From a virus, in IMG/VR virus record IMGVR_UViG_3300025305_001329, positions 1 through 24,089 of that record: a stretch of 24,089 nt of DNA, one strand, 5' to 3'. The translations under genes and the position numbers were made by a program. Under the pieces are notes generated by a model. It was not told where the DNA came from. It saw only the letters and a program-made list of their open reading frames with translations, and did no database searches. Each line of letters begins with the position of its first letter. Position 1 is the first letter of the stretch. Shown one piece after another: positions 392 to 17,641 of the stretch.

Positions 392-751
392 TTATTCCTT
401 ACTACCAGTAAACTTTTCGATTAACTCAAGGGTTCCTCTCAGTTTACTGGAGAGTGCTCTCAGTATAGGTACGAGAGCTTTAGGGTTGTTCTTCATAAAC
501 CTAACAGCATCTTCTTCTTTGAGGACTCGAAGGACCACACGATCACTAACAGCTTTACAGGTAGCAGTTCGTGGTGTCCTTTCGAGCCAACCAATCTCTC
601 CAAAGACTTCATTTTCTTTAAGAGTAGCAAGATAGCCGTATCCAGCCTTACTGACTTCTACTTCACCTTCATCAATGATGTAAGCTTCAAAACTAAGTTC
701 TCCTTCTTTAAGGATTACCTGGTCTTTCTTGAAGTAGACAGTCTTGCTCAT
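392..751 (-). CDS. Stand-alone cyclic-nucleotide-binding domain protein
   Basis: The 119 residues form one cyclic-nucleotide-binding (CNB, CRP/PKA-type) beta-roll and little else. Early beta strands contain the typical ILKEGE and YIIDEGEVEV segments. The phosphate-binding cassette is intact: FGEIG at residues 50-54 and PRTAT at 60-64, so Glu52 and Arg61, which contact ribose and phosphate in known CNB domains, are both present. Residues about 85-117 should form the C-terminal helices. There is no helix-turn-helix domain, kinase, channel or other effector (CRP is about 210 residues), so it is not a CRP-type transcription factor. ATG directly abuts the TAA of the 31-residue gene upstream, with no clear Shine-Dalgarno, suggesting translational coupling. 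The ferredoxin gene follows immediately. The ligand (cAMP, cGMP, cCMP or cUMP) cannot be told from sequence; a sensor or a ligand-sequestering role is inference. Confidence 0.9.
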   Translation of the reverse strand: MSKTVYFKKDQVILKEGELSFEAYIIDEGEVEVSKAGYGYLATLKENEVFGEIGWLERTPRTATCKAVSDRVVLRVLKEEDAVRFMKNNPKALVPILRALSSKLRGTLELIEKFTGSKE

Positions 752-5069: not shown

Positions 5070-6089
5070 TTAACTCCTTTTTCTTCTATACTGAAGAATA
5101 TTTCCAGTTGTGATTGTTCCGGTAGACATGAAGAATTTTATGGCTGTGTGAGCTTCATCTGCCGTGTTATAAAATGAACCAAAGTGTTGCACTTGAGCTT
5201 GAGGTGAATGTCCATATAGGAATATAAAGCCCATAACCATAGTTGCGACAGAAGTACCTGCTGGATTTATTAATGTTAATTCAGAATACTTAATACCTTC
5301 ATCTGTACCAGTACCCGATGTTTCATTCTCGGCTGTTAGCATGATATGAGCAGTTGCTTCCGTTGATTGAGAAGAAGCATTGTTAATAATAACAGTAGCT
5401 ACTGATAGATAACCACTTGTTCTATATGTTGGTGTTGTAACACCAAGTTGTGCTCTTATGACAGCAGTATCAGTAGATACAAATAATTCTTCTATAACAT
5501 ATCTATAATCATATCCATCAACCATATTAGTAAATGCTAGTGTAGCTGAAGTAGAGGCTGTTACAGTAGATATATATTCCCATAGACCACCTCCAGCAGC
5601 AGCTTCAAATGCTGGAGGCGCACCAGCACCAGCAGAAGTCAATACTTGACCATCACTACCAGTTGCTATTGCTACAGGATCTCCTGAAGCATCAAAACTG
5701 ATAATATTACCGTCAGTACCACCAGCCATTTTAGCTAATGTTATTGCATTGTCAGCTATATGAGCCGTATCTATACTCCCATCAGCATAATGCTCGGAGT
5801 CAAGTGCATCATCAGCAATATGAGCATTGTCTATAGATCCGTCTGCATAATGCTCAGAATCAATAGCATCGTCTGCTATATGAGCATTGTCTATTGACCC
5901 ATCCGCATAATGCTCTGAGTCAATAGCATCATCAGCTATATGTGCATTATCAATACTTCCATCAGTATAATGTTCAGAGTCAATAGCATCATCTGCTATA
6001 TTAGAACCATCAACAGCATCTGCTCCTATATCTCCAGCTCCTATTATACCAGAACCTCTTCCAGCATTTTTACTAACTATTCCACTCAT
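5070..6089 (-). CDS. Repeat-bearing tail fibre/receptor-binding protein
   Basis: The 339-residue product has three parts. Residues 1-30 are a Gly/Ala-rich head. Residues 31-110 hold four 20-residue repeats of the type IADDAIDSEHYTDGSIDNAH, followed by a broken fifth. From about residue 170 there is a beta-rich domain ending in FMSTGTITTGNILQYRRKRS, a pattern common at the tips of phage fibres. I read it as a trimeric fibre or tip protein that contacts the host surface, with repeats as a shaft. The same repeat occurs once in the gp17-like fibre, suggesting that the two proteins assemble together or share ancestry. AAGGAA precedes the ATG. Structure and receptor are inference. Confidence 0.75.
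   Translation of the reverse strand: MSGIVSKNAGRGSGIIGAGDIGADAVDGSNIADDAIDSEHYTDGSIDNAHIADDAIDSEHYADGSIDNAHIADDAIDSEHYADGSIDNAHIADDALDSEHYADGSIDTAHIADNAITLAKMAGGTDGNIISFDASGDPVAIATGSDGQVLTSAGAGAPPAFEAAAGGGLWEYISTVTASTSATLAFTNMVDGYDYRYVIEELFVSTDTAVIRAQLGVTTPTYRTSGYLSVATVIINNASSQSTEATAHIMLTAENETSGTGTDEGIKYSELTLINPAGTSVATMVMGFIFLYGHSPQAQVQHFGSFYNTADEAHTAIKFFMSTGTITTGNILQYRRKRS
5760..5999 (-). repeat. Four tandem 60-base repeats inside the fibre gene
   Basis: Four in-frame 60-base units encode fibre residues 31-50, 51-70, 71-90 and 91-110. The residues differ only at a few places (Thr/Ala after Tyr, Ile/Leu, Asn/Thr). At DNA level the units differ mostly at third positions, for example GCA, GCT or GCG-type choices for the same Ala, so the repeat is kept at protein level. 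A related 21-residue copy is encoded at 7042-7104 in the other fibre gene. Confidence 0.9.
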
Positions 6090-6108
6090 AGTTTATATTC
6101 CTTCTAAT

Positions 6109-6438
6109 TTATAATGTTTGTTCTAAGTAACTAACACAAACATCAATATCTGATGAACTACCAGTAATGATAGATAAATGATCGGCTGCTTCCATTACAA
6201 ATTTACTTGTATGTTCAAAAGTTGTTTTAGCTGCAAGAGCTTGATCAAAATAGATATAAGTATCTGCTCCCGATCCTCCATCATCAATCAACAATTTAAA
6301 GGTTTCTGCTGCATTTCCTGTCTCACATATAGTTACACTTAGAACAGTACAAGTTTTACCTGCTCCAACTGTCAGCAAAGCTTGTACTGAAGACGCATCT
6401 CCTCTAAATGTTGCTAATTTTAAAACTTCACTTGCCAT
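6109..6438 (-). CDS. Small beta-rich virion-type protein
   Basis: The 109-residue product (MASEVLKLATFRGDASSVQ...) has regularly alternating hydrophobic residues and glycine turns, as in a small beta-sandwich. It sits between the two fibre genes with GGAGAT before its ATG. Similar small proteins occur beside tail fibre genes of marine podoviruses, where they may be fibre adaptors or capsid ornaments. No enzyme motif or membrane segment is seen. Cys30, Cys38 and Cys102 are present but form no recognisable site. Confidence 0.65.
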   Translation of the reverse strand: MASEVLKLATFRGDASSVQALLTVGAGKTCTVLSVTICETGNAAETFKLLIDDGGSGADTYIYFDQALAAKTTFEHTSKFVMEAADHLSIITGSSSDIDVCVSYLEQTL

Positions 6439-6450
6439 AATTCATCTCCG

Positions 6451-7602
6451 TTAAAATCCCATGACTAAAGCTTTTCCTGTACTTGTAGTATATGAAGTCC
6501 ACGTTCCATCAATTACAGGGCTGGTTAATGTTTTGTTGGTTAATGTTTGAGTAGCATCAGTACCTACTAATGTTGTACTAGCATCTGGAAAGGTAAAAGT
6601 TCTAGTAGTACCAGTTGATATTCCTGAACATTGAAACTGAGCTTCTTTAGTTGTATCTCCATTATCTTGAAGAGTAAAATTATCATCATCAAGAGTTGAA
6701 ATAGTTGCAGATTCAATAGCATCTATTTGTCCTTGAATCCCTGAAGTTACCCCGTTAAGATAACCAAACTCAGTATTACTTATAGTTCCATCATGGATTT
6801 TAGTAGCGGCTATAGCAGCACTTCCATGAACATCAGCATTAACTATAACTCCTGTAGCTATTGCAACTACACCAGCATTACTGATAGTTACATCTCCGGA
6901 TACTGCTACATTGTCAAAATCAGTTCCATCTGCAACTAAGATATGAGTATCAGTAGCAGCATAAGAGTCATCGAAAATAGCTATCTTAGCTCCTGTTACC
7001 GCGTCATCTGCTATTTTAGCTGTAGTTACTTGTCCTGCTGCTATATGAGCTGTATCTATACTGCCATCAGTATAGTGCTCCGAATCTATGGCATCATCAG
7101 CAATTTTAGCACTTGTGATAGCATCAGCAGCTATCATGGCAGTCTCTACTGCTCCACTTGCTATTGTTAAAGCTCCAACAGAACTAATGGTAGCATCTCC
7201 TGAGAGAGCTACACCAGCATAGTCTGTACCATCAGCTACCAATATAAAACCTGATGTTGCAATAGCAGCATCATCGAGCAACGTAAGCTCATCTAAGGCT
7301 TCTTGGGCCATGTAGAATGCTTGTTTACTATCAAGATCTAAGTCAGACTCAGATAAGTTAGAGCCATCTACATAGTCTACTAAGCGTGAACTTTGACTAG
7401 AGGTTCTCTTGATTAAAACTACCTGATCTGCCGTAATATCAGCAGGGTCACTTACTGTAATTAAGCTATCGTTATTCCAAGTAAAGACTGCTGTTGTTCC
7501 ATCTACTGTAACAGCTACATGAGTTCTGCTGATAAATGGAAATGTTACAGCAAACTCTTGTGTATCTCCTGAAGCAACATATCTTACACTTGAATTAGCC
7601 AT
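6451..7602 (-). CDS. Tail fibre with T7 gp17-type N-terminal domain
   Basis: Residues 1 to about 110 match the T7 tail-fibre attachment domain. The segment RLVDYVDGSNLSESDLDLDS at 73-92 followed by AFYMAQEALDEL corresponds to the RLVDFTDGS..R..DLN..Q...AEEARD region of gp17, which binds the tail tube. The middle has short repeats of the IADDAI type, including a 21-residue module (167-187) shared with the next fibre gene. Near the C terminus TFPDASTTLVGTDATQTLTN and KTLTSP are motifs common in phage fibres. At 383 residues it is shorter than T7 gp17 (553). It lacks an obvious tip domain, which may be supplied by the 339-residue fibre protein downstream. ATG is preceded by AAGGA. Confidence 0.88.
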   Translation of the reverse strand: MANSSVRYVASGDTQEFAVTFPFISRTHVAVTVDGTTAVFTWNNDSLITVSDPADITADQVVLIKRTSSQSSRLVDYVDGSNLSESDLDLDSKQAFYMAQEALDELTLLDDAAIATSGFILVADGTDYAGVALSGDATISSVGALTIASGAVETAMIAADAITSAKIADDAIDSEHYTDGSIDTAHIAAGQVTTAKIADDAVTGAKIAIFDDSYAATDTHILVADGTDFDNVAVSGDVTISNAGVVAIATGVIVNADVHGSAAIAATKIHDGTISNTEFGYLNGVTSGIQGQIDAIESATISTLDDDNFTLQDNGDTTKEAQFQCSGISTGTTRTFTFPDASTTLVGTDATQTLTNKTLTSPVIDGTWTSYTTSTGKALVMGF

Positions 7603-10600
7603 TTATTGTTGTCCTTGTGGTTGTTGTAAATTTGGTAAATTAAATCCTGTAGGTACTTCTTTAGTTACTTTACTATATAAATCATGTCGTTTTAAATCAA
7701 ATGTACCCTGTAAAAGCCTTTTATGTTTAAATAAAGTAAGTTTAGAAGCTTTATTTTTAAAATTATTTATTAAGTTTTCTAATAAAAGTTTTTGTGTACC
7801 TTGAGGTAATTTATTAAAATTCTTTGAAGCAACAACTTTATTTAAAGATTTATTCATATCAGTCCACTTATCAATAAAAAAAGCTTTTTCTTCATTTGTA
7901 AGTACTAAGCCATTTAATTTACTAGTACTAGAAGGCTGTTTTATAGTAGATTCAAGTTCTGCCAACTTTTTAACTAAAGGACTTCTACTTGGTTGTAATG
8001 CAGGAGAAGGAATAAATAAAGCTGTTCCTACATTTCTTATTGTTTGAAAAGGTTCTCTATCAATTTCATGATTAGTGCCAGGAAATAAAACTTTTTCTCC
8101 TCCTAGATTCTTCATAGCAAATCTTTCGCCATAACCAGGAGTTACCTTACGCAGACCTTCTTCAAAAATATTCCCTATTTCTGTTCCAAAATCTTGTAAG
8201 TTATTTAAATCTGTCCGTTGAAGTCTAGATAATTTCTCAGGTTCAAATCCTGCTGTAACATTACGTCTAAAACTAGAATAAAAAGACTGAGCTGGATTAA
8301 GAAATGATGCAGCTCGTTCTCCAGTTTTTCTAACTTTATAAGACAGGGGCATATCAGAACCAACTACATTTAACATCTCTGAAAATCCTTGTAAGTAATG
8401 ACGATCTGTAATTAATCTAGCCATACCAACAACACCTGCTTCTAAAACTTCTTTAAACTTTTGAAATATCTCATCTGAAGGATCGCCTTGTTCATACTGT
8501 CCATACAGATTCATAGATGCTTTAGCCATAACTACGGCATGAGCTGAAGCTCCCATTATAACTCCTATAGGATCAAATCTATCGTATTTATGCCATGTAT
8601 TATTCCACCTATAACTGTACCAATGAGAGCCTCCCATATCTGCTTCTAATGTTTTTCTTAAATCAGGATCTCTTGGAGGTCCACCTGTAAAATTTCCTGT
8701 TAAAGCTAAACCAAAAGTAGTACCCCATAATACATTAGCCATAGCTACTTTAGCTTCTGCTAATTCTCTAACAGCTTTAGGAGCATCAGGACTTAATTCC
8801 GCTTGTAAAGTTTTATTATATTTACGCAACCAAGGAGTACGTTCCCACGCAAAACCAAGTAAGTTAGCAGGTGTTTGGAAAAAAGGAATAAATACTCTAG
8901 CTATTCCTGTTTGATCTGAATCTAAAAGTCCTTTAAGTTTAAGACCTAAACCTGGAACTACCTTTTCTTTACCAGAAAGATCATCTATTTCTATATGACT
9001 TGCAAGTTTATTTGTATAAGTATTTTTAGCTGCAAAACCTTTTGCTGCATCTACAATATCATCATGAGCCTCAACATTATGTAAAATTTCAGCAAACTTT
9101 TTATTTATATCTATTCTATTAGCAACCGTACTATTATCTTTAACGTCATTAAAAGCCTTACGATAAGCTAAAGCTCTAGTTTCTGCTCTATAGTTAATTC
9201 CTTTAAAAACTTCATCGGCTGAAAGCAATAGTTTTCCTGGTATATTAACAAGATCACCAAATAAATCTATTGCTTTTCCAAGATTACCACCTAATTGCCA
9301 AGTTTCTTTTGAAATAGATCTATCATGAGGTCTAATAAAATCTTGTTTAATATCGGTAGTTGCTTTTAATTCTTTTGCCTGTTTCCATAATCTAGGTATA
9401 TCTTGAAGAGAACTTAAATAACCCCAACCAAGCTCTGCTGCTTCTCTACTTGTAACTTCTCCACCTCGTTTAATTACTCCTGCATAAGCTCGTTCTAAAG
9501 CACTTGTAAACATAGCTGTAGTATTACCAATCATGTTTACTTCAAATGTCTTAATACTTGATAAAAGACCATTAATATATAACTCTAACAATGAATCCCT
9601 AGTTCTAGCTCCTAAGCTTTTATTTATTGAATTAAGTCTAGCTTTTATTTGTTTTAAATTAGCTTTATCTATAGCTTCCTGTTCAATCTGTTGTACTTTT
9701 AATAAAGATCTTTCTCTAAAAGCTTCTTCTGTTTCTCCTTCTAATTTAGTAATTTTAGTTTTTTTTCTAGAACCACTTTTAAATTTAAACTGAACTTCCA
9801 TATCATTTACATTTTTACGAGCTGTAAACCAACCAGCTTGTTTTATGGACAATTCAGGATCATTATAAATAATAGAATGTCTTGCTAAAGATCTAAGTTC
9901 GTCAAGATTATCAACTTGATCAATAAGTTTTTGATGACTTCTTAATAAATCAGAAGAAGCTTTAGAAAGTTCACCACCAGAAGCTAACATATCATAGCTC
10001 AATTTAGTATGACTTAAAGCTTTTTCGTATGTTTCTCGTTTACCACTACTAGCAAACAAAGCAAAAGCATCATCAGCCTTTTTCATTTCGGCTGCTCCAA
10101 GTGCTCTAGCTACACCAACATATTTAATTGCTTCTCGAACATTACCAGCTTGTTCTTCAAGTATTCTAGCAGCTTCTTTTTCTGGCATCTCTAAAACTTT
10201 TGACATACCAGAAGCAGTATCAAAATCTTCTGTTTTTATTCTACCTTTCAGAAGTTTTTTAATATCCATACGTTTACTTAAGAATTGTAATAAAGGTTTA
10301 ATATCACTACTACCCTTAAGTTTTAACAAATTCATAGATTCAATAGTATTTAAATCTACGTTTGTTACTTTTTCTCCTCTACTCCATTTTTCAACAATAG
10401 TTAAAGCTTCAGCTTGTTTTGTTTCAGTAAGTTTTTCCCAAGGCCGAACATAGTCATCTCTAGTTCTTTCATAGGAATCTTTGGCAGCAGCTTTAACATC
10501 TGGAAGATCATCAAATAATTTCATTTGTTCTGGAGAAGCTTGTTCTTTAACCTTCATAACTCCTTCTACATAGGTTTCAGCTTCTATTTGAGCTTTTTCT

Positions 10601-11388
10601 TCAATATCTTTTAGTGGTACATCCTCTAAAGTTGGTTTTCCTTTAACTTTAGAAATACCATAACCTGCTCCTTTTAAAATACCAGTAACTATAGCTCCTG
10701 CTAAAGCTCCAGTAGCTGCTGATTTTAATCTAGAAGTTGTTTCACTATCAGTATCACTTTGAGCAAGAGTTTTTATAGCTGCTCCTGCTGTAGATGATTC
10801 AGAAACTGCTCCTGTAACTAATAAAAAGTTAGCTATATTAGGATCTGTAGGATCATAAGAAGCAATATCAGACACAGCTCCTGCTGCTGTTCCAACTAAA
10901 AAATCTTTGGCAACTTTAAGTTTTTTACTTTTATCTAAAATTCCTGCTAATCTTGCAGCACCTATAACACCTGCTGATACTGCACCTGCTCCGGCTGCTG
11001 TAATAGCAACAGAAGATAAAGCAAATAAAGGAATAAATTGTCCTAAACCACGAGCTAAACTTTGTGCTGTAGTTTTAGGTTCAGGAAGATTCCAAGCATT
11101 ATCGTCTAACATTCTAGTAAACTGTCCTGCTTCTTCTACTCCTTTAGCTCCACCTATAAGTAAATGTTTGCCAACATTTAACATGCTGCCAAAAATACCT
11201 GAATCATCATCATCAGCTATCTTAGCAGTTTCTTTAGTAGCAACAGGAGCATACTCTTCTCTGAAGTTTTCTTTTTGAATATCTGCTATAGCTTCATCAG
11301 AAGCTTCATAAATTTCTCTTTCTTTTCTATTAGAAGAAAAATTATTAAAAAGACCTTCAGGTACTATAAGTGAACTTTGTTCTGCCAT
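7603..11388 (-). CDS. Internal virion protein, gp16-like ejection protein
   Basis: The 1261-residue protein holds the position and size of T7 gp16 (1318 residues), which leaves the capsid and builds a channel through the cell envelope. Hydrophobic, alanine/glycine-rich stretches at about residues 110-150 (including GQFIPLFALSSVAITAAGAG), 160-200 and 220-245 could insert into membranes. The rest is helical and charged. I do not see the N-terminal lytic transglycosylase domain of T7 gp16; that activity seems replaced by a lysozyme-like domain in the neighbouring gp15-like protein. AT-rich codons are heavily used, more than in the terminase or tail-tube genes by eye. The gene ends in a Gln/Pro tail and abuts the fibre gene. 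Confidence 0.82.
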   Translation of the reverse strand: MAEQSSLIVPEGLFNNFSSNRKEREIYEASDEAIADIQKENFREEYAPVATKETAKIADDDDSGIFGSMLNVGKHLLIGGAKGVEEAGQFTRMLDDNAWNLPEPKTTAQSLARGLGQFIPLFALSSVAITAAGAGAVSAGVIGAARLAGILDKSKKLKVAKDFLVGTAAGAVSDIASYDPTDPNIANFLLVTGAVSESSTAGAAIKTLAQSDTDSETTSRLKSAATGALAGAIVTGILKGAGYGISKVKGKPTLEDVPLKDIEEKAQIEAETYVEGVMKVKEQASPEQMKLFDDLPDVKAAAKDSYERTRDDYVRPWEKLTETKQAEALTIVEKWSRGEKVTNVDLNTIESMNLLKLKGSSDIKPLLQFLSKRMDIKKLLKGRIKTEDFDTASGMSKVLEMPEKEAARILEEQAGNVREAIKYVGVARALGAAEMKKADDAFALFASSGKRETYEKALSHTKLSYDMLASGGELSKASSDLLRSHQKLIDQVDNLDELRSLARHSIIYNDPELSIKQAGWFTARKNVNDMEVQFKFKSGSRKKTKITKLEGETEEAFRERSLLKVQQIEQEAIDKANLKQIKARLNSINKSLGARTRDSLLELYINGLLSSIKTFEVNMIGNTTAMFTSALERAYAGVIKRGGEVTSREAAELGWGYLSSLQDIPRLWKQAKELKATTDIKQDFIRPHDRSISKETWQLGGNLGKAIDLFGDLVNIPGKLLLSADEVFKGINYRAETRALAYRKAFNDVKDNSTVANRIDINKKFAEILHNVEAHDDIVDAAKGFAAKNTYTNKLASHIEIDDLSGKEKVVPGLGLKLKGLLDSDQTGIARVFIPFFQTPANLLGFAWERTPWLRKYNKTLQAELSPDAPKAVRELAEAKVAMANVLWGTTFGLALTGNFTGGPPRDPDLRKTLEADMGGSHWYSYRWNNTWHKYDRFDPIGVIMGASAHAVVMAKASMNLYGQYEQGDPSDEIFQKFKEVLEAGVVGMARLITDRHYLQGFSEMLNVVGSDMPLSYKVRKTGERAASFLNPAQSFYSSFRRNVTAGFEPEKLSRLQRTDLNNLQDFGTEIGNIFEEGLRKVTPGYGERFAMKNLGGEKVLFPGTNHEIDREPFQTIRNVGTALFIPSPALQPSRSPLVKKLAELESTIKQPSSTSKLNGLVLTNEEKAFFIDKWTDMNKSLNKVVASKNFNKLPQGTQKLLLENLINNFKNKASKLTLFKHKRLLQGTFDLKRHDLYSKVTKEVPTGFNLPNLQQPQGQQ

Positions 11389-11393
11389 ATTAT

Positions 11394-14210
11394 TTATAAT
11401 CCTGATTCAGCAAGACCCATAAGAATCACGCTTCTTTTATATATTCCTTTATTAAACTTACCCTCAGCTACTGTAATCCCTTCTTCTTTAGAAAATAATT
11501 CATATAAAGCAGTTGGAAAATCTCCCTTAGCTAAAGCTTTAGATGCTGCTGGTAAACCTTTAAATTGTCCTGTTTTTTTGTTAAAAGAACTTCCTTTAAT
11601 ATTATAAAGAGCTAATTTAATGGCTCTTTTTAATTGAGGAGGAAATGTAGTTTTACTTTTAGCTTCTAAAATATTCAACCCTTCATCAAAATCTTTCATT
11701 AAGTGGTCAATAACTTTTTTAATTTGTGGCAAAGATAATTTATCACCTTTTTTAAAAGTTTTCTTTAAAACTTTCTTAGCTGTTGAAGCTGTAATGCCGT
11801 AAGGACCAGTTAAATTAGGATCTTTTTTAGGAAAATGAAAAGGAGCATCAAATTTATGACCTTCAAGCAATTGTAAATCTTTATAAATATTATCACTTTT
11901 AATCAATTTAGAAACTTTAGATTCTATATCTGGAATTAAATTTGAATCTATTTTTTTAAATTTATCATATTCTGTTTTATAAAGACTACCTACAGTTGGT
12001 TCAGAAACAACCCGTTCTTTTATTTCATCCTTTAATTCAGAAGTTTTTTCCCAAATAGCATCAAAAAGTTTGGTAACATTTTTAAGAGTTTTACTAGCTG
12101 TTTTATTTAAATACTCTACAGTATCACTAAAAATAGGTTTTTCTTTAGGACCTTTACCTTGTTTTAATCTTAGTGCTGCTTCGGGATTCTGTTCTAGTAA
12201 TTCAGCTTTAGTAGGTTCTTTTTGAACTTTTGATATTGCTTCTTTATATTCTTTAGCAGGATTTTTTCCAGATTTTAATTGATCTAAAAATGCTTGTTCT
12301 TTTTTATTTAAAGGAACATCTACTATTAATTTATCTTTAACATCTTGAAGTGTTTCTTCTTTATCAAACAAAGTAGTTAACCTGTTCATAAAAGAAGGAG
12401 AATTACCTTTAGTAGTTTCTAAGATTTCTTTTCGTTGTTCAAGATTTTCTTGATATGCTCGAATATGATCAGAATGTGTATTAAATGTTTCAAATGTTAA
12501 TGGACCAGAAGCAGCAGTTAAAGGATCTTCTTTACGTTCCGTTTCAGATGTATCAGCAGTTAATATGCCATTTACTTTATCTGCTAATAATTTTACTTGT
12601 GTTTGAACTGTAGATTGAAAATCTTTAATTTTTTCTGGAGGAACAGTACCTGGACCTTCAGCAGCAGCGTCAGCAAAGCCATTAGTTTCAGCTAAAGTTT
12701 CTAAATCTACTACTAATTGATTAATATCATTTAATGCTAATCTAAATTCATTAGGATCTAAACTCGAACCAGCTAATAATTTAATTAATACTTTATCACT
12801 TATCTCTGTATCGTCACCAGATAAAATTAAATCATTAATGGCGTTTTTACTGGTAAGATTTGTTTTTATTAAACTAACAAGATTTTTTCTAATAGTAGCC
12901 GTACTTTTTAAATAAGCAGCTACATTATCTTTTCTTTGTTTACCTTCTTGATCTAGATAAGAATTTAAAGAGGGTTGAGCATCTTCAGATAAATTACCAA
13001 GAATATAATAATCTTGTAAAGTTGCTTTATCTTTAACCTGACCAGATAGAATTAAATCTCTAATTTCATTATAAACTGGTGAATTTTTTTGTTCCTTAAT
13101 AATAATTTTATTATATTTCTTTAGACTGTCAACAACAGTATTAACTTGACCTGCATTCATACCAGCATTTTCTAATTCTTGTGCTATACTTCTAAAATCA
13201 TCTGTAGGATTCTGTTTATAATCATCAAAAACTTTTAATTTAGCTGTTGAAATACGTTCTTTATCAGCAGCTTGTTGATTATTCTCAAGATTATCAAAAT
13301 ATGCTTTTTGATTTTCTAAATACTTATTATATATTTTTTGAAATTCTAAAGAATCTTCACCTTTACCAAAATAGAGGTTTGCATAAGTAAAACCTTTATT
13401 AAACTGTTTACTTAATAAATTTTGAATGACATCGGCATCCGCTATAATAGATTCATTAACAGTAAGAGCTTTAAAAATTAATAGTTTTTTTTCTGCATCA
13501 GGCATGTTAGGAAAAATATTGCCTAAATCCTTACTATTATTATTAATCCATTGTTCTGTAAAAACATCAGTTAATTTAAGGTCTGTCCCTTTATAAACAT
13601 TAGATTTTTCAACATGACTAACAGCATCATCAATTTGATTTGATAGTGCTTCAATAGATTGAACATATTTATAATCATTTTCTACATTAAGTATATCTTT
13701 TTTAACACTTTGTTTAAGTTCGTCAATTTTTGTTTTATACTTCTGTGCGATTTCAGGATATTGAAACGTATATAAAGAGTTTTGTACTAAATTTTCAGAA
13801 TAAGTATCTATAAAATCCATTTTATCTGCTGTTTGCATACTAAAATTTTTAACAACATTAGAAACTTCTTCACTTTCAGTCCAAGTTTTATATTCTAAAA
13901 ATTTATTATTTGCTTCGTTTAGTTCGATTATTTTAGCATAAGAATCTTGAGCAATAGGAAGTAAACTTTCCGGCATTACCTCATTTCTTAAAGCTGCGTT
14001 TTCTGCTAGTATTATATCTTCTTTAATTCTTCTTCGTTTAGAATGTTCAGCAGCAGAACCTATTGCACTACTAAAACTTTGTAAACCTGAAAGAAGTTGA
14101 GTATCTCTAGCAGAAGTATCAGGTAATCCTTGGGTTACTACAGATCTTTGGGTATCTGTAAGTTTTGTTTCTAATGGGTCTAGTCTAAATAATTGATCTG
14201 GAGATGGCAT
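11394..14210 (-). CDS. Internal virion protein, gp15-like, with C-terminal lysozyme-like domain
   Basis: The 938-residue protein lies where T7 has gp15 (747 residues). Most of it is helical and charged, as expected of an inner-core protein ejected with DNA. Residues about 775-936 look like a GH24/T4-type lysozyme. LEGHKF places Glu783 like the catalytic Glu. KKDPNLT gives Asp797 and Thr801, GPYGIT follows, and the helices LPQIKKVIDHL and PPQLKRAIKLALYNI resemble the lysozyme Q-A-LL and Q..AL.S..YN.G segments. The spacing from Glu to Asp (14) is longer than in T4 lysozyme (9). The role would be local peptidoglycan cutting during DNA entry. ATG overlaps the TAA of the gp14-like gene. The gp15-like identity is fairly sure from position; the lysozyme call is by eye. 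Confidence 0.82.
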   Translation of the reverse strand: MPSPDQLFRLDPLETKLTDTQRSVVTQGLPDTSARDTQLLSGLQSFSSAIGSAAEHSKRRRIKEDIILAENAALRNEVMPESLLPIAQDSYAKIIELNEANNKFLEYKTWTESEEVSNVVKNFSMQTADKMDFIDTYSENLVQNSLYTFQYPEIAQKYKTKIDELKQSVKKDILNVENDYKYVQSIEALSNQIDDAVSHVEKSNVYKGTDLKLTDVFTEQWINNNSKDLGNIFPNMPDAEKKLLIFKALTVNESIIADADVIQNLLSKQFNKGFTYANLYFGKGEDSLEFQKIYNKYLENQKAYFDNLENNQQAADKERISTAKLKVFDDYKQNPTDDFRSIAQELENAGMNAGQVNTVVDSLKKYNKIIIKEQKNSPVYNEIRDLILSGQVKDKATLQDYYILGNLSEDAQPSLNSYLDQEGKQRKDNVAAYLKSTATIRKNLVSLIKTNLTSKNAINDLILSGDDTEISDKVLIKLLAGSSLDPNEFRLALNDINQLVVDLETLAETNGFADAAAEGPGTVPPEKIKDFQSTVQTQVKLLADKVNGILTADTSETERKEDPLTAASGPLTFETFNTHSDHIRAYQENLEQRKEILETTKGNSPSFMNRLTTLFDKEETLQDVKDKLIVDVPLNKKEQAFLDQLKSGKNPAKEYKEAISKVQKEPTKAELLEQNPEAALRLKQGKGPKEKPIFSDTVEYLNKTASKTLKNVTKLFDAIWEKTSELKDEIKERVVSEPTVGSLYKTEYDKFKKIDSNLIPDIESKVSKLIKSDNIYKDLQLLEGHKFDAPFHFPKKDPNLTGPYGITASTAKKVLKKTFKKGDKLSLPQIKKVIDHLMKDFDEGLNILEAKSKTTFPPQLKRAIKLALYNIKGSSFNKKTGQFKGLPAASKALAKGDFPTALYELFSKEEGITVAEGKFNKGIYKRSVILMGLAESGL

Positions 14211-14758
14211 TAAGCTGTTGTATCCCTTTTAGCATTGATAGAAGTTTGTATTCCTGTACCAGCTATACTTAAAGCTGTGCCTAACATACTACCACCAGTA
14301 CTTAAATTAGAAAATGCAGCGTTATTTTGACTGAGAGTACTTAAGGTTACATTTCTATGTCTAATTTCAAAGTCTCTCATTTTAGTTTGAAAATTTAAAT
14401 CTTTACGAGCTAAAGCATTATATCCATGTCTTGCAATATTCATAACGGTAGCTTGGTAAGAACCTCCTTGTTTACCAAAAGTTCCTCCTGCACTTCCAGC
14501 TATAGCAGCATTTTTAGCTTGCTCTCTTCTTATAGCTTTTTTTAACTCAAAATCATCTAATCCAAACTTTTTAAGTTCTAATAAATGTTGAGCGTTTAAA
14601 TTAAGATGGGAATTAACAGCTAAACTATTATTAATAGATGTTTGTCTATAAGCTTGAACTCGTTGAGCGTGTGCTTTTTGGTCAGCTAAATTCTTTTGAT
14701 ATAAAGAAGTTCCTGCTTTTGTTACAAAATCTAAAAAGTATAACGATGCAAAATCCAC
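14210..14758 (-). CDS. Internal virion protein, gp14-like
   Basis: The 182-residue protein matches T7 gp14 (196 residues) in place and style. It has a helical Gln/Asn/Ala-rich body (QAYRQTSINNSLAVNSHLNL, ELKKAIRREQAKNAAIAGSA) and a C-terminal Gly/Ser/Thr-rich hydrophobic stretch (GGSMLGTALSIAGTGIQ) that could insert into the outer membrane during ejection. The start is GTG at 14758, overlapping the TAG of the previous gene, with AAGGTGG upstream. I see no ATG that would give a better N terminus. Function is assigned from gene order and composition, as these proteins diverge strongly. Confidence 0.78.
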   Translation of the reverse strand: MDFASLYFLDFVTKAGTSLYQKNLADQKAHAQRVQAYRQTSINNSLAVNSHLNLNAQHLLELKKFGLDDFELKKAIRREQAKNAAIAGSAGGTFGKQGGSYQATVMNIARHGYNALARKDLNFQTKMRDFEIRHRNVTLSTLSQNNAAFSNLSTGGSMLGTALSIAGTGIQTSINAKRDTTA

Positions 14759-15207
14759 TAATCAGCCACCTTACAGAACTCATAAAACTTCACATTATTA
14801 ACCATACGTTCCCCTATTATCTTAAATCCGCACCACTTGATCCACTTAAGGTGCATCTCATTCCTACTATCTATGATATTCCATAGATGAGGAAATAAAG
14901 TATTCATCTTCTCAACTTCAGTTCTACTTTCTTTCAAGAAAGGTATCTTGATTTTCTTTAGTTTATCTGAACCTAACATCCAGACGAGTCCTGTTTTCTT
15001 ATCAGCAGGAACAACACCATACATACCAACAACCTGACCATAGTTATTTATGATAGACCGACAGACTCTCCCAAATAAGTATCCACTTAATAGAGATTGT
15101 TCTGAAGTCTTCCCTAGAGTATTAACTTCGCGTTTATCTTCAAACCTAAGATTAGGAGCTAACTCACATACATCGTGTAGCTGAGTAGCCCTATGAAAAG
15201 GCTTCAT
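14758..15207 (-). CDS. gp13-like virion morphogenesis protein (acetyltransferase-like fold)
   Basis: The 149-residue product corresponds to T7 gp13 (138 residues) between tail tube B and the internal core genes. Residues 108-134 (LWNIIDSRNEMHLKWIKWCG then FKIIGER) match the LWNYVWVGN..HIRFLK..GA end of gp13, which is also the GNAT-like motif. T7 gp13 is needed for assembly of internal proteins; acetyl transfer has not been shown for it to my knowledge. The ATG has AAGGAGAT at six bases. The gene overlaps the GTG of the gp14-like gene, so the core proteins are translationally linked. Confidence 0.8.
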   Translation of the reverse strand: MKPFHRATQLHDVCELAPNLRFEDKREVNTLGKTSEQSLLSGYLFGRVCRSIINNYGQVVGMYGVVPADKKTGLVWMLGSDKLKKIKIPFLKESRTEVEKMNTLFPHLWNIIDSRNEMHLKWIKWCGFKIIGERMVNNVKFYEFCKVAD

Positions 15208-15208
15208 G

Positions 15209-17641
15209 TTATCTCCTTGCTACTGTTCTCACCACATAGTTACCTTCCCAATCAGCACCAGTAAAGGCACAAGGAAGGTATGAGTCAGATATGAGTTCCA
15301 GTTTTAGATCTCTGGAATCTGCCAAGATAAGCTTTTTAAAGTTACCAGTTTCAAAAGGAATAGTACCAATCTTATTCAAAGGTGATCCTAAGATACGGCC
15401 TGTATAGACATGGCTGAATGCATCTCTCCCTGGAGCTGTCACTTGAAGTTTGAAGAATCCGGTATTAAAATAATCTACATTGAACTTACGGATCTTCAGG
15501 ATACCCCCTGCAAGAGAACTCAGTCTCCCCTGTACTTCACTCTTAATGGTAGGCTCAGTAAACTCATAGAGAAACTGGTATTCCTTACCGATGAAACATG
15601 AGCCAGCAGAGTGATCACCAGTAGCCGTGAGTGTAGTGGGAGTTGTTTGAGATACTCCTTGAACTAAATCTCCTTCCTTACCTAAAAAAGAAGGACCAAA
15701 GATTACTCTAAAGGTTGACCCAAAGTCATCAGGATAGGGTATAGTCCAAGAAGTAAGATCAGCACCGGAGCTGTAAGATCCTGTAACTTCTGTTAGTCTG
15801 TCTACATGAGGCTTAAAGGAAAGCTGAGTGATGCTTTCAGTCAGGTTTACAAGGTTAGCATCTTGTAAATTCATCTTATCTAGGTAAGTACCATCAGGTC
15901 TTACAATAATAAAATAAGCTACATTTTCTACAACTCTCAAACCTATTACTTTTTCTTCTGATTTAAATTTCCATTTAGACCATGAACTTAATTTCTTTAC
16001 CCCTCTTTCAAAGAGCATTTTATACATGAAAACTTCATTTAAATTCTCATCTGATAAAGCAAAGAGAGTATCTTGATGAGGGCTTAAATCAAATAATCTA
16101 CCTTTGATATAACTAGGAACATGGGAAGTAATATCTTCAGCAGTCTCTTCTTGTAAATCTTCAATCGTACCAAATTCTCGAATGATTGAAAAACCACTGG
16201 TATTGGTAGCAAAATAAAGCTTTCTACCATTTAATACAGGTTTAATTAACTTGTCAGTTTCATACTCAGTGATTAAAGCTAACTTGGCATTAGTAGGTGT
16301 GAGTCCACCAGCAGCAAACTGAGATAACTTGAACTGAGCAAAGTCACTAAAGAGATAGAGTTCTTCATTGAAAGCTATACCGTGATTCAAGATACTAACC
16401 TGATTACTTGGAGAGGCCAAGTCAATCATATCGGTATCTAAAAGATCAGTAGCCGTAGTATTATAGAAATTAAAGAACTCTCCTAATTCAGAGAGTATAA
16501 TATTTTCTCCTGCTAAGAAACCTAAACGGTTCTTATGGAAGAATATATCATTCAGCTTTTCTGTAACAAAGGTTGGGTCTGGAGCTGTAGTTTCATCTCC
16601 AGCAGCTCTGTCTGTCCATGTAATTTGAGATAGAGAGAATACAGTTTCTCCATAATCAGAAGAAAAAGCATCATCCCAAGGATCTTCAGAAGTTCTGATA
16701 AACTGAATAGGCATGGTACTAGGATCTAAACTATTAGCTAGTTCCGGTTCTACAGTCTCTACCCATTCACCTACATCTTCATCAGCTTGGTTATTATGTT
16801 TAATCCAGTAATCATCAGTCCCTGAACTGGGATCTCCTGTAATTTTAACAATAAATCCATCCTTGGTTCTAGCAGGAAGATCCGTAAAATCTACAACACT
16901 ATCTTTAATAGCAATACAATTTGCTTCTGGAGCTTGAACATGAAGTGTAAAATCACTACCATCTTTTTTAGTTAAGTGAACATTTGAACTACCAAACTTG
17001 GTGATATCAAACGTAGATCCAATAGAAGAAACAAGTTCATCAAAACAATCTGTTATTTGAGTAGCAGCATTAGCACTGGAATTAATAGTAGATCTTAAAG
17101 TACCATCTACATAAACTAGAAAATCAGTAGCGTTAGAAGCCTGTTTGAGAAATACAATACCTTCAGGATCTCTCGCGTCTCCTGTCGTTGTTAACTTGGC
17201 AGTAGCCGTTGTCTTGTTTAACAGAAAAGTATAGTCAGCTACAGTAAATAATTTAAGATTATCCCTAGCATCAACTGTAGTGATATAAGTTAATACGTCT
17301 CCTGTAGCTCCTGAGACGCTCTTAGATGTCCCATCTAAATCCCATACCTCCATTTCAGATCCTGAGAAATCATCGCTGAAATCGGTACTGAATTGGTCTG
17401 AGGTGATACTGACAATATATCGTTCATCTTCATCACGATTAATGAAATGTATGTGAGCATCAGTATCAGTTTTATTACTTAACTTAGCAACAAATTCTAA
17501 AGGGGGGCGTTTCTTTAATCCTTCTGCTATGGTAACTAGACCATTTTCTTGAGTTTCACATTGAGAAGCTAAACGTAATGAAGGGGGTTGTTGTGAAACC
17601 CCATTAATTAAGTTGCTTATTTGTTCTGTTATTAGTGGCAT
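15209..17641 (-). CDS. Tail tubular protein B (T7 gp12-like nozzle)
   Basis: The 810-residue protein forms the tail nozzle, matching T7 gp12 (794 residues) in size and position. The N terminus ISNLINGVSQQPPSLRLASQ followed by ENG and EGLKKRPPLEF is the family signature. The body is beta-rich, with a further conserved segment EYETDKLIKPV near the middle. It follows tail tube A by less than a codon; AGGAA about 11 bases before ATG is the likely ribosome binding site. Six copies are expected below the portal and gp11 ring, with the fibres attached at their junction. Confidence 0.95.
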   Translation of the reverse strand: MPLITEQISNLINGVSQQPPSLRLASQCETQENGLVTIAEGLKKRPPLEFVAKLSNKTDTDAHIHFINRDEDERYIVSITSDQFSTDFSDDFSGSEMEVWDLDGTSKSVSGATGDVLTYITTVDARDNLKLFTVADYTFLLNKTTATAKLTTTGDARDPEGIVFLKQASNATDFLVYVDGTLRSTINSSANAATQITDCFDELVSSIGSTFDITKFGSSNVHLTKKDGSDFTLHVQAPEANCIAIKDSVVDFTDLPARTKDGFIVKITGDPSSGTDDYWIKHNNQADEDVGEWVETVEPELANSLDPSTMPIQFIRTSEDPWDDAFSSDYGETVFSLSQITWTDRAAGDETTAPDPTFVTEKLNDIFFHKNRLGFLAGENIILSELGEFFNFYNTTATDLLDTDMIDLASPSNQVSILNHGIAFNEELYLFSDFAQFKLSQFAAGGLTPTNAKLALITEYETDKLIKPVLNGRKLYFATNTSGFSIIREFGTIEDLQEETAEDITSHVPSYIKGRLFDLSPHQDTLFALSDENLNEVFMYKMLFERGVKKLSSWSKWKFKSEEKVIGLRVVENVAYFIIVRPDGTYLDKMNLQDANLVNLTESITQLSFKPHVDRLTEVTGSYSSGADLTSWTIPYPDDFGSTFRVIFGPSFLGKEGDLVQGVSQTTPTTLTATGDHSAGSCFIGKEYQFLYEFTEPTIKSEVQGRLSSLAGGILKIRKFNVDYFNTGFFKLQVTAPGRDAFSHVYTGRILGSPLNKIGTIPFETGNFKKLILADSRDLKLELISDSYLPCAFTGADWEGNYVVRTVARR

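Follow-up and report, generated by a model that had tools for sequence, protein, structure and literature searches.

The gp15-like ejection protein described here very probably ends in a virion-associated GH24 lysozyme of ~170 residues, predicted to be ejected together with the tunnel and to open the peptidoglycan. A divergent GH24 (T4/lambda-type) lysozyme domain was confirmed at residues ~765-938 of this protein (11397..11918, minus strand), because homology to the relative L067, profile matches to the relatives L063 and L069, a profile match to the muramidase 6et6 and the predicted structures all agree. The initial annotation, made from the sequence alone, had proposed a GH24/T4-type lysozyme at this place and a gp16-like protein free of a transglycosylase. 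Both proposals held, while the newness implied for the arrangement did not.

Genomic Context

The window, by which we mean the whole stretch of 24,089 nucleotides analysed (IMG/VR record IMGVR_UViG_3300025305_001329), covers structural genes of a T7-like podovirus encoded on the minus strand, as judged from open reading frames and matches to Pfam and PHROG profiles. Besides the large terminase, a capsid protein (PF21703) and a tail fibre (PF03906), it encodes a gp12-like nozzle protein (15209..17641; PF25675, E 1.7e-214), a gp13-like protein (14758..15207; phrog_308, E 4.2e-35), a gp14-like outer-membrane pore protein (14210..14758; T7_gp14 family PF24072, E 1.9e-8), the gp15-like ejection (tunnel) protein of 938 aa with an ATG start (11394..14210) and a gp16-like internal virion protein of 1261 aa (7603..11388; phrog_6651, E 2.8e-25), all on the minus strand. 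Identical genes occur on further IMG/VR contigs, the largest of which comprises 41.9 kb. Based on the nozzle, the nearest named phages are Pelagibacter phages with about 38% identity, and thus the phage is probably of marine origin. With the nozzle as anchor we found 72 loci of relatives and retrieved the gp15 and gp16 genes lying downstream.

The gp15-like gene sits between the gp14-like and the gp16-like genes, which is the placement of a tunnel protein of the SP6 gp36 or phiKMV gp36 type, and homologues of its N-terminal part lie at the same place in relatives. A profile of this N-terminal part gave nothing meaningful against T7 gp15 or the PDB. The identity of the 938-aa protein as gp15 rests on synteny, without detectable similarity to T7 gp15. 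Likewise, a profile of the gp16-like protein matched neither T7 gp16 nor any PDB entry.

Two other regions of the window deserve mention. Near the terminase gene, a protein of 119 aa (392-751, minus strand) consists of a stand-alone cyclic-nucleotide-binding domain (PF00027, E 2.7e-15), which is unusual for a small podovirus; it is conceivable that it senses or sequesters host cyclic nucleotide. Furthermore, two proteins of the fibre region (5070-7602, minus strand) have repeats of the type DDAIDSEHYxDGSIDxAHIA in common, and such repeats also match the fibre genes of relatives.

A Divergent GH24 Domain at the C Terminus

As a single sequence, the gp15-like C terminus has no match in Pfam, PHROGs or the PDB, so the lysozyme call is not obvious from a routine search. 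Comparison with named phages by tblastn gave nothing significant either, the only hit being the lysozyme of a Megaira phage with E 6. Further copies of the domain were limited to L067 and the identical contigs among the viral contigs scanned, and none was found in the genome contigs scanned.

The C terminus of the L067 gp15 provides the link to known lysozymes. Its alignment with the window C terminus scores 174, compared to a mean of 39 and a maximum of 61 for shuffled sequences (blastp E 3e-12), a likeness that exceeds chance. While the window domain itself stays below the threshold of the Pfam model Phage_lysozyme (PF00959), its direct homologue in L067 exceeds the cut-off with 25.0 vs 22.3 bits and also recovers lysozymes of solved structure (9.4e-6). 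At the same place of gp15, L063 and L069 comprise strong PF00959 domains (7.5e-14 and 1.7e-14), which also match the endolysin family phrog_7. A profile built from the window and L067 recovers these two domains (hhalign prob 97, E 1.7e-11) as well as the muramidase with PDB entry 6et6 (E 2.3e-4), and a profile of all four sequences matches a solved muramidase at E 6.9e-15. The family profile search proposed in the initial annotation gives no match for the C terminus alone; the matches come by way of L067 and from the comparison of profiles. In the 41.9-kb record with identical genes, no other match to PF00959 or PF01464 was found.

Structure prediction points in the same direction. An AlphaFold2 model computed from the window and L067 only reached a pLDDT of 66.6, and its first 14 PDB matches in Foldseek were all GH24 lysozymes (prob 0.90-1.00 for ranks 1-9 and 0.51-0.89 for ranks 10-14). 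With four sequences the pLDDT was 72.1 and the first 21 PDB matches were GH24 enzymes; the best TM score, against 6et6, was 0.62 by query and 0.74 by target. The named top matches in a viral structure library were likewise lysozymes or endolysins. The Foldseek E-values are modest (0.015-0.05 at best); what counts is the consistency within the match list, together with the sequence profiles. At the moderate confidence of these models, the domain is predicted to adopt the T4/lambda-type lysozyme fold of GH24 and thereby resembles GH24 endolysins and muramidases such as the Acinetobacter enzyme 6et6, R21, P1 Lyz and T4 lysozyme in predicted fold and sequence profile. However, such endolysins mostly serve host lysis, whereas the window domain forms part of a structural ejection protein.

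Candidate Catalytic Residues

Glu783 (codon 11862..11864), Asp797 (11820..11822) and Thr801 (11808..11810), all on the minus strand, and the GPYGIT motif (residues 802-807) were found where the initial annotation had put them. We aligned the window and L067 domains (MAFFT) with those of SP6 and phiKMV and with GH24 enzymes from six other phage sources. Thr801 falls on the column of the conserved GH24 Thr/Ser and G805 on a conserved column as well. Glu783, the candidate general acid, stands in an LLEG context that resembles the usual FEG, but is shifted by three positions unless an extra gap is introduced; its assignment is therefore plausible, though dependent on a forced gap. The spacing of Asp797, the candidate catalytic Asp, is not canonical: it lies 14 residues from Glu783 (8-9 in canonical members) and 4 before Thr801 (6-7 canonically), while Glu783 and Thr801 are 18 residues apart instead of about 15. 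In L067 the Glu-Asp loop is longer still, yet the conserved Thr is kept and the Glu column holds an IED motif. Thus the proposed catalytic residues fared unevenly in the alignment, and the Glu/Asp/Thr triad of the window domain is a plausible candidate only.

Because of this non-canonical spacing, the site may be inactive or rearranged. One might envision a GH24 fold that is catalytically dead or weak and instead binds peptidoglycan or braces the tunnel. The additional residues in the catalytic loop of both the window and L067 fit such a scenario, as does the low confidence with which this loop was modelled (pLDDT below 50 for residues ~784-796 in the four-sequence model). However, the three candidate residues are all present, L067 retains its motif in the Glu column together with the Thr, and unmistakable hydrolase domains occupy this slot in other members of the group, so we regard a dead domain as unlikely. 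A different doubt concerns the family. The stretch EG...DPNLTGPYGITxxTA of the window resembles the GH108 pattern, EGGY...DPGGxTxxGIT, and this likeness is a lead toward another family of the lysozyme superfamily, for example a GH108-like one. In contrast, L067 matches PF00959 but none of the GH108 models, GH24 enzymes head the structural matches in the PDB and the C-terminal half of the domain carries the GH24 pattern KALxxGD...GLxxRR. Membership in GH108 is not favoured by these three observations, and a family other than GH24 appears very improbable.

It could also be argued that the entry enzyme resides on the gp16-like protein or on an unrecognised gene, while the gp15 C terminus has another job. 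After all, the lysozyme of the window is itself invisible to Pfam, and another one could be as well. However, the lysozyme signature is found in the gp15 C terminus, and the searches of the gp16-like protein were negative although their controls worked: Pfam detected no SLT domain, and its N terminus matched neither an SLT profile built from the relatives (hhalign) nor a GH24 profile. In the controls, T7 gp16 gave SLT at E 1.7e-31 (residues 15-127) and was also found by the SLT profile from the relatives (E 2.7e-5). Across the relatives, none of the gp16 N termini scanned gave an SLT or lysozyme match. A transglycosylase, of which the initial annotation saw no sign in the gp16-like protein, is indeed not detected, so that the T7-type placement with SLT at the gp16 N terminus is not seen in the window phage, and an entry enzyme elsewhere is quite improbable. 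We consequently keep to a GH24 lysozyme on the gp15-like protein.

Precedents in Other Podoviruses

Relative to T7, the enzyme belongs to a different family and lies at a different place, as had been suggested. T7 uses an SLT/GH23 lytic transglycosylase on gp16, whereas the window domain is part of the gp15-like protein; both have in common the presumed opening of peptidoglycan for the tunnel and the location at the gene 15/16 junction. However, the arrangement is not new, since lysozymes on gp15 equivalents are already known from SP6, K1E/K1-5 and phiKMV. Virion-associated lysozymes have been described for SP6 gp36, K1-5 and phiKMV gp36, the C-terminal domain of the latter being thermostable (PMC5380687). 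According to the passages on SP6 in PMC5380687 (citing Moak and Molineux 2004) and PMC8954989, its virion lysozyme is muralytic, and a 2022 review describes the hydrolase domain as able to swap from gp16 to the gp15 homologue (PMC8954989).

SP6 gp36 (homologous to K1E gp35 and its K1-5 counterpart) is an internal virion gp15 equivalent with a C-terminal GH24 domain, matching PF00959 at E 6.6e-10 over residues 770-905 of 978. Its C terminus was matched by the window and L067 profile (hhalign E 8.3e-5, prob 60.6) and by the four-sequence profile (E 7.3e-7, prob 91.8), which identifies the window domain as a homologue of the C-terminal lysozyme of SP6 gp36. In contrast, the remaining parts of both proteins are unrelated in sequence, and the window domain is too divergent for Pfam and has a longer Glu-Asp loop. 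The 898-aa phiKMV gp36 (gp36C) is a gp15 equivalent with a C-terminal lysozyme as well. It belongs to PHROG 2083, annotated as 'internal virion lysozyme motif', and its E-8x-D motif is visible in the alignment. While the window profile does not match phiKMV gp36 directly, the gp15 C termini of L063, L069 and L015 match PHROG 2083.

Module Exchange at the gp15/gp16 Junction

The two ends of the gp15-like protein have different nearest relatives. Over residues 1-460 the window is closest to L012 (score 1090, compared to only 111 for L067), whereas its C terminus is closest to L067 (174, compared to 64 for L012). Thus, from a sequence perspective, the window domain appears to be an exchangeable module, the ancestry of which would be common with the L067 copy and not with the modules of the closest relatives. 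L012, although its nozzle is 91% identical to that of the window, carries an SLT domain in the C-terminal slot of gp15. At the DNA level, window and L012 are 88.8% identical up to about gp15 codon 305, and the alignment resumes only in the second half of gp16.

Other relatives differ by a larger block. Identity to the window is 94% for L069 and 87% for L019 until the end of gp13 and resumes at the fibre gene (93% and 90%), while the gp14-gp15-gp16 block in between is replaced, with breaks at gene boundaries; the exception is a short gp16 stretch of L069 that is 66% identical to the window. Moreover, L013 (12003-12920) and L019 (7228-8146) have 919-bp gp15 3' ends in common that are 96.8% identical, while the rest of their gp15 genes is mostly unrelated, which points to a recent module transfer.

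The module is not always fused. The relatives L023/L024, L028, L029, L052, L057 and L058 have a short gp15 of about 590-685 aa, followed by an ORF of 245-309 aa between gp15 and gp16. In L052 this free ORF (15349-16125) and the gp15 C terminus of L042 (6404-7042) are homologues (E 5e-13). Thus the module can form the end of gp15 or, as at least one homologous pair shows, stand as a free ORF between gp15 and gp16. Both members of this pair contain the motif SxHxxGxAxDLR...HxHxHLG, which resembles that of M15 peptidases; searches of the module against Pfam and the PDB gave nothing, and the M15-like reading is by motif. The free ORF of L058 weakly resembles SLT domains, whereas the modules of L036 and L057 did not match the SLT profile. 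Besides, the gp15 C terminus of L036 (15901-16464) contains a transglycosylase-like ES...GGIYQI pattern and has a match in PHROG 3108 (E 2.1e-17), a family of unknown function.

Among close relatives, the flanking structural genes of which are up to 94% identical, the slot contains GH24, SLT, SLT with LysM or M15-like modules. One might speculate that the gp15/gp16 junction is a swap slot, in which GH24, SLT with or without LysM and M15-like enzymes are exchanged for one another among nearly identical phages and are located at the end of gp15, on a free ORF or, as in T7, at the start of gp16. Since few genomes are involved and the assignments are partly based on motifs, we hold this idea tentatively and give it slightly less than even weight.

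Proposed Role in Genome Entry

Fold and family relationship, the gene position and the lack of a detectable enzyme on the gp16-like protein were computed; from these we infer the order of ejection, the activity and the catalytic residues. In T7, gp14 forms the outer-membrane pore and gp15 the periplasmic tunnel, while gp16 crosses the inner membrane (PMC8954989). By analogy, the gp14-like protein of the window phage would make the outer-membrane pore, the gp15-like protein would form the periplasmic tunnel and the gp16-like protein would cross the inner membrane. As a component of the ejection core, the lysozyme would then be carried within the capsid and enter the periplasm with the ejected tunnel. 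From its position at the C terminus of the tunnel protein, it could cut the glycan strands of the peptidoglycan and let the tunnel pass, thereby taking over the job of the N-terminal transglycosylase of T7 gp16.

Taken together, in this divergent phage lineage, too, the tunnel protein rather than gp16 may carry the entry lysozyme, which routine annotation overlooks. The diversity of the slot among relatives is the less expected part and stands outside the lysozyme finding. If the junction is indeed a swap slot, the type of enzyme would change while the ejection machine stays, and this could tie to the cell-wall chemistry of the host.
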